A stretch of 7,291 nt of DNA from Thermoproteota archaeon (GTDB taxonomy: Archaea; Korarchaeota; JAOZGF01; JAOZFZ01), in contig JAOZFT010000036.1 of the NCBI GenBank assembly GCA_027492035.1, forward strand, positions 1-7,291, read 5' to 3'. Positions 180 to 6,928 of the stretch are shown piece after piece. A model generated the notes under the pieces. It did no database searches. It saw only the letters and a program-made list of their open reading frames with translations, and was not told the origin of the DNA. Both the position numbers and the translations under genes were made by a program. How positions within the stretch are numbered: the first letter of the stretch is position 1; every line of letters starts with the position of its first letter.

Positions 180-675
180 ATGGCTATGACTTTGATTATG
201 AATGTTAGTCCTCGTAAGTTTGTTTCGGTTCAGCAAGGGTGTTTTCATCCTTCTCCAGTTGGGTACTGCTCAGAGCCGGTAAAGATAGCCGAAGCTAATG
301 AGATTTTAATTTCTGTTGGAACTCCTGTTGGAGATGTTAATCTAGCTCCATGCAGATTATGTATTGGTATGGGATTAGCAGCAATTAGGTTTAATGGTAA
401 GAAAGTCGATAACTTATTTTATTTCTATTATCTCCAGAAAATTAAGACTTTTCTAGAGGCGCTAGGAAAGGGATAAAGCAATAGTTAAGGATGACTTAGA
501 AAATTTAAGAGTTCCGCTTCCTACTCTTGAAGAACAGAAGAGAATAGCTGAAATTCTTTTAACCGTTAATAAAAGGCTTGAAGTTGAAATGAAGAGAAAG
601 GGAAGGCTAGAACGAATAAAGAAAGCTCTAATGGACTTATTGTTGACTGGAAAAATTAGGGTTAAGGTGAGTTAA
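180..675 (+). pseudogene. hsdS: HsdS C-terminal fragment, frameshifted
   Basis: This is a remnant of the type I RM specificity subunit, which chooses the DNA target and bridges HsdM and HsdR. The first frame (180-476) carries the end of a target-recognition domain, including EILISVGTPVGDVNLAP and CIGMGLAAIRF, then the helix leading to LEALGKG. The second frame (about 475-675) carries the family's C-terminal conserved region: VPLPTLEEQKRIAEIL, a charged helix, then LMDLLLTGKIRV and TAA at 673. The frames differ by +1 at 472-477, where homologues usually read GKGSTFKAI; an 8-nt deletion would give exactly this break. A stop (TAG 177-179) lies just before the first ATG, and the N-terminal half, including the first recognition domain, is missing. 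About 165 residues remain, against roughly 400 in the family. The TAA is 2 nt before the next gene, so the operon layout survives. Confidence 0.9.
666..671 (+). promoter_or_regulatory. ribosome binding site for the 308-aa gene
   Basis: GGTGAG inside the last codons of the hsdS remnant lies 6 nt before GTG 678. It decides the GTG start and shows coupling to the broken upstream gene. Confidence 0.6.
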
Positions 676-677
676 AA

Positions 678-1604
678 GTGGCTGAAGCTAAAAAACCATT
701 TGAGACATATTTAGAGGAGTATATAGGGTATCTACGCAAAGTTATAGATGAAACTTATAATTACTCCGCTGAAGGCACCCATATGCTATTTGAATTTATT
801 AATAACTGGATCGATTTAGTTCCCACGGAGAAAACCCTCTTCCTTGAAGCTACTAATTCTTTATCAGGAATAATTTTACTCAATTCTTGGAAGCTCATGA
901 ATTGGATAAGTTTTGAGATCTTATGTGGTAAGTATTTTGAGGCTTTAAGAGATTTACGTTTCATCTTCGAAGGTAGTATTTATGCCGTGGTCATAGAAGA
1001 TCTAATTGAGTCGCAAGTGTGGAAAAAATGGCAGTCGTTAAGTTCCATGTGCCTTAAAGCTGAAATCTTCAAGCTCTGGGAAGAATGCAGGAGTGCACGG
1101 GTATACGACAAAGAGAAGAAAGAGGTGGTAAGAGGTAAAGTAGAAGAGTTGGTTAAAAAGTTCATAGTGGATTCAGGTTCTCCCCCTGAGAAAAAAGTAG
1201 AGCATATAAGTGTCTATACCGAAATACTCTCCCAACGTGAACTCTACATGTCTGTGGGATCCATGATAGGAAAATGTTGCAAGTTGTTAAGAATTGAAGG
1301 AGAAGAAGAAAATTTAAGGGGTTTGTGGCATGAACTATCTCGTTATCAACATTTTTCTTATCCTTATCTTGAGATATCTTGTAAAAGACCAGAATTTGTA
1401 TTTCTTGAAGTGTTCGACAGGGTTCTCTTTGAATCAAGCTTGGAACTTTATTTCAGGACCATAGATCTCCTTTATGCAGCCATAGCTTGGCGTTTCCCTC
1501 AGTTAAGTGATAAAATCAAAGAAATGAATACTTGGTGGAAGGAAAATTTCAGTAAATCATTTACTTTAACAAAGAAAGTATTAAGGAGATTTGAGAGATG
1601 TTAG
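678..1604 (+). CDS. intact helical protein of unknown function embedded in type I RM operon
   Basis: This gene encodes 308 residues from a GTG start with a good GGTGAG site. I do not recognise the family with confidence. The protein reads as almost entirely amphipathic helices, with no signal peptide and no clear membrane span. Two stretches stand out: FEALRDLRFIFEGSIYAVVI at about 87-106, and LWHELSRYQHFSYP at 216-229. The second recalls the 'YxxLSxxxH' segment of several uncharacterised helical families; this is only a loose resemblance. The gene starts 2 nt after the hsdS stop, and its last 7 nt overlap the hsdR ATG (1598), so it was a true operon member between S and R. Both neighbours are broken while this frame is clean over 927 nt. 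Reasonable guesses are an RM accessory factor or an abortive-infection-type effector. The sequence does not settle it. Confidence 0.85.
   Translation: MAEAKKPFETYLEEYIGYLRKVIDETYNYSAEGTHMLFEFINNWIDLVPTEKTLFLEATNSLSGIILLNSWKLMNWISFEILCGKYFEALRDLRFIFEGSIYAVVIEDLIESQVWKKWQSLSSMCLKAEIFKLWEECRSARVYDKEKKEVVRGKVEELVKKFIVDSGSPPEKKVEHISVYTEILSQRELYMSVGSMIGKCCKLLRIEGEEENLRGLWHELSRYQHFSYPYLEISCKRPEFVFLEVFDRVLFESSLELYFRTIDLLYAAIAWRFPQLSDKIKEMNTWWKENFSKSFTLTKKVLRRFERC
1584..1590 (+). promoter_or_regulatory. ribosome binding site for hsdR remnant
   Basis: AGGAGAT lies 7 nt before ATG 1598, inside the end of the 308-aa gene. The initiation signal of hsdR survives although the gene is broken. Confidence 0.6.
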
Positions 1605-1997
1605 CTGAACGGAGCCTCCAAGATTACATTGGAAAGAAACTGAAAGAGCTAGGATGGGAAGTAGTTGAGTGGGGTAGAGGTGTAAAAGGAGAAAGAGGTT
1701 CACTTGAAGAAATATTCCTAAAAGAAAGATTGTTTAACGCTTTAGAGAGAATCAACAATGTAAGTTTGAATTGAGGATGAAAGGAAGGATGTACTTTCAA
1801 GGCTGCTTTTACTACCTAACACGATCGATGGTATAAAGAACTTCCTTGACTTCGTGAAGAATGGAATACCATTCAAGATTAGAAGGGATGAGGAAGAGAT
1901 TGAAAAACTACTGTATTTGTTTGATTTCGAAAATGTTGAGAGTAACGATTTTCTTGCTGTTAAGGAGTTTGAGATAGAAGAGAATGAAACACAATAA
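1598..1997 (+). pseudogene. hsdR: HsdR N-terminal fragment, frameshifted and truncated
   Basis: HsdR is the translocase/endonuclease subunit of type I RM enzymes. The first frame (1598-1774, 58 residues) has the typical opening: RSLQDYIGKKLKELGWEVVE, then WGRGVKGERGSLEEIFLKE. It stops at TGA 1772. The protein resumes in another frame from about 1770 with EDERKDVLSRLLLLPNTIDG, then FVKNGIPFKIRR and LFDFENVESNDFLAVKEFEI, ending at TAA 1995. The last stretch matches the family's conserved segment just before the RecB-like nuclease core. A one-base insertion or two-base deletion near 1766-1772 explains the frame change. The sequence breaks off before the catalytic PD-(D/E)XK residues, and the whole motor region (normally several hundred residues) is gone, replaced by unrelated sequence. 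The product cannot cut or translocate DNA. Confidence 0.88.
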
Positions 1998-2352: not shown

Positions 2353-3372
2353 TTAAGTGGATTTCCTTGTGCCTTCTTTTATCAGTTTTTCTATGATTCT
2401 CCTTGAGTCTTTTCGGCTTAGTTTCCTCATCTCAACCTGTAAAAATTTTCCCCAGTCCTCAGGGTCTTTTATAAACTCGAGTTCGGGGGCTAATTCTCTG
2501 AAATCCATTTCTTTACCAGTAAATACTGGTTTTATTAATAACCTATATGGGTATGTTTTGTCTGTCCATACTTTTTCATTGCTTGTAAACATGCTGCTGT
2601 AAACCTCGTAAACTTCTTTAACCATTTTGTCTCCTTTTACATAGAAAACTATTAGGTCTCGTGGTTTTACCTGTGAAATAACTTTTTTATATCTCTCAAC
2701 TCCCCAGAGGCCAAGCCTAACGCATTCCCTGTAATTTTCAGGGGAGGTAACTGCCAGCCAAAGGTTTCTCTTGGATAAACTTTCAGTTACCCTGTCCATG
2801 ACGCTTGGCTCTGCTTCAAGGAGTTCATCACATATTTTCTCTTTAATGAGATCGAGGGGTCCAGCTTTTCTTTTATATTCTTGCCATTTATCCTCATATA
2901 AGCTTAGTAAGTCATCTGTTAACTTTTGTGAAACAGGTGACGTCCATAAACCCTTTAAAAAATTTAGGACTTCTTTAATTGGCGAATCAATTTTCCTTCC
3001 CTTTAAAACAATGTTTGCTTCGATGTTTCTTTTAAAGCCGCCAGCTGTTAAGTTAGAAGATCCAACAACGGCCAAAATGTCTTCTTCAAGTCTTTTTGCT
3101 TCATTAACTACGTAAACCTTTGGGTGGAAGTAACCAGTTGAAGAATAAACCCTGACTTCAAACCCTAAGTCAAGTAGTGTCTTTAAAGCTGAAGGTTCAG
3201 CGGCGTAACCACTAAGAGAAGCTAAAATTCTGCCTCTATATTCAGAGTTTAAGGTTTCATGGAGGAAATCAACACCTTCTTTATCAATAAATGCAACAGA
3301 TGCCCAGATATTCCTTACAGGTTCAACTTCTCTAAAAACAGAGAACAAGTCGCCTGTAAATTTAATCTTCAC
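2353..3372 (-). CDS. PLD/BfiI-like nuclease fused to EVE domain (putative modification-dependent restriction enzyme)
   Basis: This gene encodes 339 residues and looks intact. Residues about 1-140 form a phospholipase D-type nuclease domain with a single active-site set: H83-x-K85 in YFHPKVYVV, and N107 in VVGSSNLTAGGF followed by E118. The N-to-E spacing of 11 matches what I recall for the metal-independent restriction enzyme BfiI, whose dimer shares one active site. Residues about 203-284 resemble an EVE domain of the PUA-like fold: LWLAVTSPENYRECVRLG, then LWGV, KPRDLIVFYVKG, and TYPYRLLIKPVF. EVE domains are known or predicted readers of modified bases. Reader plus nuclease suggests a type IV-like enzyme that cuts modified, probably viral, DNA; this is inference. 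The GTG start is supported by GGTG 6 nt upstream; the nearby ATG (3374) hits a stop at once. It faces the + strand operon tail-to-tail and has its own promoter. Confidence 0.85.
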   Translation of the reverse strand: MKIKFTGDLFSVFREVEPVRNIWASVAFIDKEGVDFLHETLNSEYRGRILASLSGYAAEPSALKTLLDLGFEVRVYSSTGYFHPKVYVVNEAKRLEEDILAVVGSSNLTAGGFKRNIEANIVLKGRKIDSPIKEVLNFLKGLWTSPVSQKLTDDLLSLYEDKWQEYKRKAGPLDLIKEKICDELLEAEPSVMDRVTESLSKRNLWLAVTSPENYRECVRLGLWGVERYKKVISQVKPRDLIVFYVKGDKMVKEVYEVYSSMFTSNEKVWTDKTYPYRLLIKPVFTGKEMDFRELAPELEFIKDPEDWGKFLQVEMRKLSRKDSRRIIEKLIKEGTRKST

Positions 3373-3724: not shown

Positions 3725-3771
3725 TTATAAAATTCTCAGATTTGTTCTTTGTTCTACAGCTTTCGCAGTAA
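3685..3771 (+). pseudogene. possible 5' remnant of an unknown gene
   Basis: ATG 3685 opens 28 codons, MGMDETVKEFGEGIIKFSD and then a tail, ending TAA 3769. The first 19 residues look coding. The rest overlaps the hsdS N-terminal fragment on the other strand and looks like out-of-frame sequence. A TATA-like palindrome and a weak AGGTTA site lie upstream. It could be a gene start cut off by the event that truncated hsdS at about 3735. No family recognised, and it may be chance. Confidence 0.25.
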
Positions 3772-3895
3772 CGCCATAATAAATATCCGCTATAATGTTT
3801 TCTAATCTAGTAAACTCCCAATCTTCTGGAATTTTACTGATTGGTGTTTCTTTAAATTTCTCCTCCCTGTGAAATCTTATGTTGACCTTGTACAT
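3725..3895 (-). pseudogene. hsdS: HsdS N-terminal fragment
   Basis: This encodes 56 residues from ATG 3895; a TTG at 3907 overlapping the upstream gene is a possible alternative. KFKETPISKIPEDWEFTRLE is the classic opening of type I specificity subunits, followed by the start of a first target-recognition domain, DIYYGVTAKAVEQ, then TNLRIL and TAA at 3725. Homologues continue with the rest of that domain, a conserved helix, a second domain and a second helix. All of this is missing here, and unrelated sequence follows. It lies directly after the PD-(D/E)XK gene (2 nt from its stop), so it was the operon's next gene. The missing C-terminal part may be the + strand fragment at 180-675. Confidence 0.88.
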
Positions 3896-3897
3896 AG

Positions 3898-4386
3898 CTA
3901 TCGCCAATAGTACTCATTCTCAAAGGGATTCTCAGGATACCACTCATGGAAGGATTGATCTTCCTCATTGAAGTAAACTAGAACTAAATTTCTATAGGCA
4001 GGTAGTGATAATAAAGAATAAATCACTTTTGACAGTCTCTTTATCTCCTTTGGAATTTCCTCTGTTGAAACGAGAAATACAAATCTTGCATCGAAAAGTT
4101 CAGCGTACTTCCTTGTTTGATAGATATGGTCTAATTTTATCTGCTCCTTCTTAACTTCAATCACGACAAACTCAGTCCAACTATTTTTAACGATGAAGCC
4201 TGTAATATCTGGTGCTATTTCTTTAAGGAAGTAGAAAATTATGTGGCGATAGTCTGGAATCTTGCTTTTCAACTTATTACTAAACTTTTTACTGGATGTT
4301 ATTTCAAGATACGGCTTTACTCCCTTAGACCTAAATAATTCCTCAAATTTTTGCTTAATAATCACATAGTACTCTTTTTCTCTCAT
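3898..4386 (-). CDS. small stand-alone PD-(D/E)XK nuclease-like protein in the hsdM-hsdS gap
   Basis: This encodes 162 residues from ATG 4386, preferred over TTG 4398 because GGTGAT lies 4 nt upstream of the ATG. The nuclease core is visible: APDITGF gives the acidic residue D60, FVVIEVKK gives E77-V-K79, and the following helix carries Q90-TRK-Y94, a Q-x3-Y pattern seen in RecB-like members. The N-terminal region is rich in lysine and helical; the C-terminus ends in an aromatic, acidic tail, HEWYPENPFENEYYWR. The hsdM stop is 1 nt before this ATG, and the hsdS start follows its stop, so it was co-transcribed with the RM genes. Standard hsdM-hsdS pairs lack such a gene. It may be an accessory nuclease of the RM system or a passenger. 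Unlike its neighbours it is unbroken, and its DNA is more AT-rich than hsdM. Confidence 0.82.
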   Translation of the reverse strand: MREKEYYVIIKQKFEELFRSKGVKPYLEITSSKKFSNKLKSKIPDYRHIIFYFLKEIAPDITGFIVKNSWTEFVVIEVKKEQIKLDHIYQTRKYAELFDARFVFLVSTEEIPKEIKRLSKVIYSLLSLPAYRNLVLVYFNEEDQSFHEWYPENPFENEYYWR

Positions 4387-4387
4387 C

Positions 4388-5562
4388 TTAATCACCAAGT
4401 ATCTGAGTTAATTGAGAGATATATTCCTCCAACCTCTTTAGTTCGGAGAACTCTAGAGCGATGTCTATCTGCTCCTCTTCCTCAACTGGCATTACGTAGA
4501 GTGCCACATTTAAGTTGTAATCATTATCCCTAACCTCTTTCATATCTACTACTCTTGAGAATCCATCTAAATCAGCGAAGCCCAGTCAGCGGTGTTCTTA
4601 GGTGGATAGCCGAGGCGGAATCTCCATCCAAACTCGGCTTTTTTAGGCCTGTCCTCTCCATACCCATCCTGGTTCCATGGAACGTTAGCCATAACTACGT
4701 CGAACTGCTTTAACTTTCCTCCCTCTTTAAACATGGGGTGGTCGAGGGTGTCTTCTCTCGCTAAATTGGCATTCTTAATATCATGTAGGAGTAGGTTCAT
4801 CCAGCTTATAGCGTAGATTGTTGGGCTCCTCTCCTGTCCGTATAGGAAAAGCCTCCTAGCCTCCTCTTCACCATATTTCTCAGCCACGTATAGGTAGGAG
4901 ATTATCAGCATTCCACCTGATCCGTGGCGGGGGTCATAAACGCTCTCACCAGGCTTAGGGTCTAGGATCTCAACGAGCAGCCTTATGACCTCCCTAGGCG
5001 TGTATATTTCGCCTTCCTTTGCCCTTGTAGGTGCAAACCTCATGAGTATATGCTCGTAAGCACCCCCCAGGACATCTGGAGAAGCATACTCGTTGCTTAA
5101 ATTATACGTGTTGAAAAGCTCGACAAGCTGTCTCAGAAGCTCCCTATTCCCCTGACTCCTTGCGAACTCCAGGAAATCAACTCTATCAATAACACCCTGC
5201 AGTTCCTTATTCCTTTTAGCTAGTTCACCTATCGCATTGGCAAGCCTCTCGGGAAGCTTTCTAACGTCCTTCGTTATCTCATCCCAGAGGCAAGGCCTAG
5301 GGATAGTGAATATGTGGGAGACCTCTAGGGTCTTCTCAGCCTCCTCCTCAGCCTCCCTCTCCGGTAAACCTATTTCTTTGATTATCCTCTCCTTTATCCT
5401 CTCCTTCTCACTTTTCCAAACATCGTTAAGCCTCTTCAAGAATAGTAACACGAGGATGAACTTGTAATCCACAGCCGTCCTTACCAAGTCAGCAGCCTTG
5501 TCAACCAGAGAGCTTAATTCCTCTCTAGATATCTTCCTCGGTATGAAACGGTCTAAACTCAT
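4388..5562 (-). pseudogene. hsdM: HsdM with internal deletion and altered catalytic motifs
   Basis: HsdM is the N6-adenine methyltransferase subunit of type I RM. From ATG 5562 (site AGGTGGT 4 nt upstream; GTG 5571 is an alternative) 331 residues are readable: a helical N-terminal domain with LLFLKRLNDVW, the segment GEIYTPREVIRLLVEIL (185-200), motif I as DPRHGSGGML from residue 210, GQE at 242-244, and WMNLLLHDI. The frame runs to ADWASLI and stops at TAG 4567. The true C-terminus follows in another frame: DLDGFSRVVDMKEVRDNDYN, then LNVALYV and TAA at 4388. Between the two, roughly 110-150 family residues are missing, so a frame-breaking deletion joins near 4570-4580. Motif IV, (N/D)PP(Y/F/W) in active enzymes, is NVPW at 293-296, and motif I has RH where a Cys-containing pair is usual. 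An active methyltransferase is very unlikely. Confidence 0.93.
4391..4396 (-). promoter_or_regulatory. ribosome binding site deciding the start of the PD-(D/E)XK gene
   Basis: On the minus strand GGTGAT lies 4 nt before ATG 4386 and overlaps the last codons and stop of hsdM. It is a strong match to the archaeal 16S rRNA tail and indicates translational coupling. Confidence 0.65.
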
Positions 5563-5566
5563 TTCT

Positions 5567-5573
5567 ACCACCT
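5567..5573 (-). promoter_or_regulatory. ribosome binding site for hsdM
   Basis: AGGTGGT on the minus strand, 4 nt before ATG 5562, supports that start over the GTG at 5571, which falls inside this site. Confidence 0.6.
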
Positions 5574-6133: not shown

Positions 6134-6928
6134 TCACCGTTTCCACTTTTTTATTCTGTCTTCAATTTCCTTTTCAAGTATGCTTCTAAGAGTTCTAAAG
6201 GTTTTCTGACTGGTTCCCATCATGGCCACAGCGCCGCCTGGCATACCTTTTCTGCTAGCCTTCCACTCTTCAGCCTTTAAGTATTTTGAATCCATAAGTT
6301 TAAAGAGGAAGTCTCTCAGTTTTCCATAGGTGAGTATGTATTGACCTGTATGTGGATCTCTGCAATATTTGGCAATTGTCGGGAGAAGCCCATTAAAAAC
6401 GAAAGCCCCGGTGGTTTTTTGAACTACGTAATCTTTAGGTGAAATAAACGCATCTCTCATTAAGTCTTTAATAGCGTTCCAGAAATTGTTAAGAACCTTC
6501 ACAAGGGTATCTACATCTAAATCTTTAAAGTCTGGATGCTTCAAGATAGGTTCAAGAGAATCCGTGAATGATTTCTGTCTTATTGTGGCCCTTGGTTGCT
6601 TAACGTTTGGAGGGCGTATAAGTCCATGGCATGGGGAGTTTACATCTTCGTTAAGTTTATCAGCTATTTCAACAGCTTTTGGTCTCCACTCTACATCTGC
6701 AAATATCCTTCTAGGTAATGTCCCCGTCGCCACCTTCTCCATGATTGTTGTGTAGCCTTCCTTTAAAGCGGCTTGTTGTAAAAATCTCTCAGCAAGATCT
6801 GTCCTTACCCCTATTAGGTAACATCTCTCTGTGGAGGATACAAATAAAGAGGAGGGTATACTTTTAATCGTTACTCTGTAGAAGATGCTCGGAGAGGGAG
6901 GAAAAGGGTTCCCCTCTTTAGAGAAACT
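6134..6928 (-). pseudogene. C-terminal half of a DGQHR/DndB-like protein, N-terminus lost
   Basis: The frame is open from 6928 to TGA 6134, about 264 residues. No ATG, GTG or TTG occurs before the internal ATG at 6742, and TAA (6929-6931) blocks the frame upstream. Readable protein starts well before 6742: IFYRVTIKSIPSSLFVSS, ERCYLIGVRTDLAERFL, then KVATGTLPRRIFADVEWRPK. The later part, AVEIADKLNEDVNSPCHGLI, then RQKSFTDSLEPIL, LVKVLNNFWNAIKDLM and KTTGAFVFNGLLPTIAKY, resembles the C-terminal half of DGQHR-domain proteins. That family includes DndB, the regulator of DNA phosphorothioation, and also free-standing defence-island members. The signature DGQHR motif, expected further upstream, is absent. 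A short readable stretch in another frame (LNSFEGVTDLKVSL, 6960-6919) suggests a frameshift near 6920. Assignment is from pattern memory and moderate. Confidence 0.5.

Follow-up and report, generated by a model that had tools for sequence, protein, structure and literature searches.

A single gene at positions 2353-3372 (minus strand) of a korarchaeal contig couples a PLD-family nuclease domain to an EVE domain, raising the question of whether one archaeal protein could both recognise a modified base and cut the DNA that bears it. The window analysed is the entire contig of 7291 bases, which belongs to a draft host genome of 1.87 Mb that is 93% complete. An initial annotation, made from the sequence alone, had described a BfiI-like nuclease carrying a reader of base modifications, lying intact within a wrecked type I RM locus.

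Gene structure and domain composition

The gene runs from a GTG start at 3372 to a stop at 2353-2355 and encodes an intact protein of 339 amino acids with a predicted mass of 39.2 kDa and a pI of 8.8; translation of the same span on the plus strand meets 27 stops. The chain consists of three segments only: an N-terminal PLD-family nuclease domain (approximately residues 1-150; 2923-3372, minus strand), backed by the PLDc_2 profile, an alignment with 17 relatives and a fold match; a helical linker (approximately residues 151-202; 2767-2922, minus strand), taken from an AlphaFold2 model; and a C-terminal EVE (PUA-like) domain (approximately residues 203-331; 2380-2766, minus strand), supported by the Pfam EVE profile and a fold match. 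Pfam PLDc_2 matched residues 30-134 with E = 2.6e-10 (40.7 bits, cut-off 27) and Pfam EVE matched residues 203-326 with E = 1.9e-5 (25.1 bits, cut-off 23), with NCBIfam PRK00809, an archaeal EVE subfamily, reaching E = 1.7e-21, under that model's full-family cut-off. By sequence, the solved structures nearest to the PLD half were SauUSI (2e-6) and BfiI (0.003), and those nearest to the EVE half PH1033 (7e-15) and MJECL36 (3e-11). A chance ORF and a reading-frame artefact were both rejected, the two domains scoring above their Pfam cut-offs in one intact frame; judged from the sequence, the fusion of PLD and EVE in one chain is real, far beyond chance.

The AlphaFold2 model was built from a 45-row alignment without full-length relatives, in which some PLD tails were misaligned onto the EVE half, and had a mean pLDDT of 83 and a pTM of 0.58. 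Confidence was mostly above 90 pLDDT in the EVE half and poorest at residues 170-178, within the helical linker; given this pTM, the relative placement of the two domains in the model is not to be trusted. Fold comparison with VIA-align 2 matched the EVE half to PH1033 (Z 20.8; 1.2 A over 129 residues), MJECL36 (Z 19.3), the YTH m6A readers (Z approximately 14, Pfam YTH having no match to the protein) and the EVE domain of VcaM4I (Z 13.7; 3.1 A over 129 residues). The PLD half matched SauUSI (Z 17.4; 2.6 A over 155 residues) and BfiI (Z 15.2; 2.9 A over 155 residues), and the PLD-fold RNA nucleases Zucchini/MitoPLD were also among the fold matches. The BfiI-like nuclease domain proposed at the outset is upheld by the PLDc_2 score and by the SauUSI and BfiI matches, and structure prediction combined with fold search recovered a PUA-like C-terminal domain with pocket positions and a PLD site that is not degenerate. 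The identity of the EVE domain was likewise correct, its size having been underestimated at 80-100 residues when it spans about 130 (203-331).

The PLD active site and its nuclease relatives

The PLD domain was aligned with 17 distant PLD domains from loci fetched for the analysis, at 22-30% identity, and only seven columns were invariant: G33, H83, K85, G104, S105, N107 and E118. The four residues that had been named as the active site, H83, K85, N107 and E118, are all among them, present in each of the 18 sequences. A profile built from this alignment retrieved SauUSI at E 7e-46, followed among restriction enzymes by NgoAVII R (entry R.NgoVII, 5e-11) and BfiI (1.6e-10), and PADLOC placed mREase_IV and DrmC among the relatives of the domain. 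The relatives recovered by profile are defence nucleases (SauUSI, BfiI, NgoAVII R), and those found in Algoriphagus adjoin helicase and methyltransferase genes.

The BfiI/SauUSI/NgoAVII-R branch is marked by a PLD fold in which each chain carries one HxK...N...E motif, and this is the pattern found here; a single HxK motif per chain implies that a functional site takes two protomers. In SauUSI and BfiI the active site is indeed a composite of two protomers, and BfiI proceeds via a histidine-phosphate intermediate (PMC7913695), a step that the present protein would share by analogy.

The EVE base pocket

The candidate pocket of the EVE domain comprises T209, N213, W223, W269 and Y274. According to a review of YTH domains (PMC6112328), the aromatic cage of MJECL36 (W25/F79/F90) overlays that of the m6A reader YTHDC1, T11 and N12 being the residues that deviate. 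The same W25, F79 and F90 stand opposite W223, W269 and Y274, a correspondence drawn from residue numbering in the alignment. The latter three positions carry aromatic residues in all 22 EVE relatives, in which T209 and N213 do not vary either; the predicted pocket looks intact. The EVE-HNH enzyme VcaM4I restricts 5mC/5hmC DNA via such a pocket, in which the T11 hydroxyl and the E15 side chain touch the flipped cytosine (PMC7897488), and the spacing of T209 and N213 makes them the likely counterparts of these two residues.

As to the mark that would be read, the protein carries a YTH-like EN-x9-W spacing, comparable to N367...W377 of YTHDC1, which leans towards adenine, and T209 leans towards cytosine. 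Reading of m6A was considered from this spacing and downgraded, since MJECL36 shares the layout and, despite its cage, leaves m6A RNA unbound (PMC6112328). By analogy with the T11 contact in VcaM4I, a modified cytosine is slightly favoured. Cage residues alone are no proof of reader activity, because a relative as close in structure as MJECL36 fails to bind m6A. We know of no established ligand for the archaeal EVE branch that includes MJECL36.

Proposed function

An EVE and a PLDc domain in one chain, their folds and their conserved residues support the single-protein, type IV-like enzyme of the initial annotation, and the gene product is probably a self-contained, dimeric, modification-dependent DNA nuclease that acts without NTP and probably without metal. 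Two protomers would pair by their PLD domains to build one composite active site, with H83, K85, N107 and E118 contributed by each, and this site would cut DNA through a covalent phosphohistidine, in the manner of BfiI, needing neither metal ions nor NTP. In the EVE domain, the modified base would be flipped into the aromatic cage of W223, W269 and Y274, with T209 and N213 making contacts to the base edge, and base reading would restrict cutting to foreign DNA bearing the mark, or unleash it there. We infer the dimerisation, the chemistry, the choice of DNA over RNA as substrate and the cutting of modified DNA only.

An affinity of the PLD domain closest to the DNA restriction nucleases SauUSI and BfiI, together with a neighbourhood of DNA restriction genes, makes it unlikely that the protein is instead an RNA-directed effector, in which the EVE domain would read a modified RNA base (e.g. 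in tRNA) and the PLD domain would cut RNA, causing suicide or dormancy during infection. The EVE half does lend this alternative some substance, being nearest, mostly at 30-38% identity, to archaeal EVE proteins that stand alone, many of which may bind RNA, and the presence of Zucchini/MitoPLD among the fold matches points the same way. Some EVE proteins have moreover been assigned tRNA 5mC binding and others toxin-antitoxin roles, and RNA can be degraded by the nucleases, PLD ones among them, that belong to related systems (Bell et al., 2020; PMC7641849).

The decayed type I locus and host methyltransferases

Fragments of hsd genes flank the PLD-EVE gene on both sides. An hsdS remnant (183-673, plus strand) and an N-terminal hsdR remnant (1598-1991, plus strand; HSDR_N at E = 0.0021, below cut-off, and 3.4e-9) each lie in two frames, and a further hsdS fragment (3728-3907, minus strand) was recognised by PADLOC Specificity_I at E = 5e-7. 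The broken hsdM (4391-5571, minus strand) consists of an N-terminal part at 4567-5571 and a C-terminal piece at 4391-4579 in another frame, which together cover positions 2-169 and 276-310 of PF02384, with about 106 central positions gone.

The PLD-EVE frame is thus complete amid a split hsdM and frameshifted hsdS and hsdR, much as first described. The type I system appears to have decayed as a whole, beyond HsdM alone, and part of the damage may be draft-assembly error. It had also been suggested that the loss of the local HsdM might be connected with the presence of the nuclease; such a link is no more than possible, since HsdR and HsdS are broken too and the entire system has decayed. Modification-dependent PLD-wH fusions have been found adjoining type I methyltransferases, with no conflict predicted between the two (PMC11037411).

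The hsd fragments on either side could also mark the protein as an accessory of the type I system, an EVE-bearing guard nuclease beside hsd that acts on lost or altered modification, and stand-alone EVE proteins are indeed regular neighbours of type I RM systems, for the most part in archaea (Bell et al., 2020; PMC7641849). We give this little credence: the hsd genes have decayed and the PLD-EVE frame is intact, implying that its upkeep is independent of hsd, and third-position G+C is 0.33 in the PLD-EVE gene (2353-3372, minus strand) versus 0.55 in hsdM (4567-5571, minus strand), a contrast in base composition indicating a mosaic island with parts of different origins. Least probable is a relic that folds correctly but is non-functional, or that is intact by recency alone, for which the broken state of all surrounding type I genes and the absence of an orthologue of the full fusion from the sampled genomes speak; against it weighs that the frame is complete and that no catalytic or cage position has been lost.

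For the favoured modification-dependent nuclease, tolerance by the host is a further consideration. Profiles of four methyltransferase families (PF02384, PF01555, PF00145 and PF02086) were searched against the host genome, about 7% of which may be missing. In the whole genome, PF02384 matched only the broken hsdM and one gene on contig 9, which was also the sole match to PF01555; PF00145 and PF02086 had no match in this 93%-complete genome. The contig-9 gene adjoins genes read as RNase Z-like and tRNA-thiolation-like and was itself tentatively identified, by eye, as a THUMP-type tRNA methyltransferase. Within the four searched families, the host thus seems to have no functional DNA methyltransferase; it would then tolerate a modification-dependent nuclease, and its own DNA would be spared for the same reason.

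A more specific scenario is rather doubtful: that an archaeal thermophile lineage made a single-protein, modification-dependent nuclease of its own, independent of metal and NTP, by fusing a SauUSI/BfiI-like PLD domain with a local stand-alone EVE protein, that the pocket (T209 and N213 plus the aromatic cage) recognises a mark other than 5mC/5hmC (4mC or 6mA, for instance), and that the fusion could persist only as the host lacks the matching DNA methyltransferase. Thermophily of the host is suggested by its korarchaeote affiliation.

Three other ORFs of the window deserve mention. A 202-aa ORF (6134-6742, minus strand), apparently without its N-terminal part, has weak DGQHR/DpdB similarity (E 4.5e-6 and 1.2e-5) and is possibly a further defence-island remnant. 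An intact 308-aa ORF (678-1604, plus strand) between the hsdS and hsdR remnants had no match in Pfam, NCBIfam or PADLOC, and a 166-aa ORF (3898-4398, minus strand) adjoining the hsdM remnant matched HSDR_N_2 weakly, at E 0.0074 and below cut-off; it possibly encodes a small PD-(D/E)XK nuclease.

Comparison with known systems

The EVE-PLDc fusions reported by Bell et al. (2020; PMC7641849) have the same two domains in one chain and the same predicted role; the present protein differs in its archaeal UPF0310-type EVE domain, the comparison being drawn from the published description. A literature search found no biochemically characterised PLD-EVE fusion. To our knowledge, none of the EVE-PLDc proteins of that survey has been biochemically tested.

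VcaM4I and other EVE-HNH enzymes likewise fuse an EVE reader to a nuclease, with an EVE domain matching in fold and a base pocket built of a T and an E/N position plus aromatic walls, E15 of VcaM4I probably corresponding to N213. In VcaM4I, however, an N-terminal reader precedes a metal-dependent HNH nuclease, whereas the present protein has a PLD nuclease first and the reader at its C-terminal end. The type IIS enzyme BfiI (358 aa; PLD + B3-like) is comparable in length and has the same order of N-terminal PLD domain, linker and C-terminal DNA reader, but its reader is a sequence-specific B3-like domain; BfiI-type membership was rejected because the C-terminal domain here is EVE. The type IV enzyme SauUSI (PLD, SF2 ATPase and SRA-type reader) offers the closest solved PLD domain by both sequence and fold and carries its modified-cytosine reader in the nuclease chain, as the PLD-EVE protein carries a reader domain in its own. 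Here an EVE domain replaces the SRA-type domain and there is no ATPase/translocase, and SauUSI-family membership was rejected since the 339-aa chain holds no SF2 helicase/ATPase domain. The PLD-wH fusions Aba4572I and CbaI (PMC11037411) are also two-domain proteins with PLD and a modification reader but, unlike the PLD-EVE protein, they are bacterial and read 6mA by a winged helix.

EVE-PLD fusions form a predicted class, and this compact, NTPase-free and possibly heat-stable member is suited to probing the ligand of the archaeal EVE branch; if it proved to cut near a given modification independently of metal, it would be a useful mapping tool.

Distribution of the fusion

Searches for further PLD-EVE fusions found none beyond this member in the samples. 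Whole-protein searches of 29 genomes of the host phylum, of 394 archaeal relatives (the host phylum included) and of 395 genomes from the phylum of the Algoriphagus match yielded single-domain matches and other fusions, namely SNF2 helicases with PLD and McrB with EVE, but no other PLD-EVE chain. Profile searching did not detect the fusion in 115 genomes of a Thermococcus-like phylum, nor was it among the matches listed from a Pfam EVE search of the 395 genomes. A plasmid collection yielded single-domain matches only; phages and viral contigs had no match to the whole protein, and scanning the viral contigs with the EVE profile gave one stand-alone EVE gene. In the searched genomes, most EVE proteins stood alone or were fused with McrB-type ATPases; the PLD domains were linked to helicases or to C-terminal regions of no assigned family.

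Bell, Wolf and Koonin (2020; PMC7641849) described numerous EVE-PLDc fusions, predicting that they act as type IV enzymes, and later authors have repeated the prediction; the negative searches, which covered the taxa of that survey unsystematically, do not contradict it. The kind is already known, and the protein described here adds to it a further archaeal member that is apparently rare and, in our samples, solitary.

The searches also brought up several other arrangements of these domains. An archaeal protein of 392 aa (locus L044:164-1342, minus strand) has an N-terminal EVE domain followed by an apparent KaiC/RecA-like ATPase, its Walker A motif being recognised by eye. No such fusion of EVE with a KaiC/RecA-like ATPase is known to us. 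In the same phylum, the product of L009:1506-2489 (plus strand) is a further candidate type IV enzyme, its EVE-like N-terminus being followed by what may be a PD-(D/E)XK nuclease region containing an ELKK motif. Locus L046 holds an archaeal PLD protein with a C-terminal region of no assigned family (4024-5052, plus strand) and, about 8 kb away, a stand-alone EVE gene (13270-13692, plus strand). One genome of the host phylum (G026, contamination 6%) carries six EVE genes, five of them very alike, on contigs 104, 49, 112, 176, 2 and 18 (loci L002, L010 and L012-L015). Finally, the Algoriphagus PLD proteins (L016:7959-9086 and L017:7959-9089, both plus strand) adjoin a large methyltransferase gene, the former matching Pfam RE_NgoFVII over its cut-off and the latter also having an SNF2-type helicase gene alongside; this gene content is that of a defence operon.
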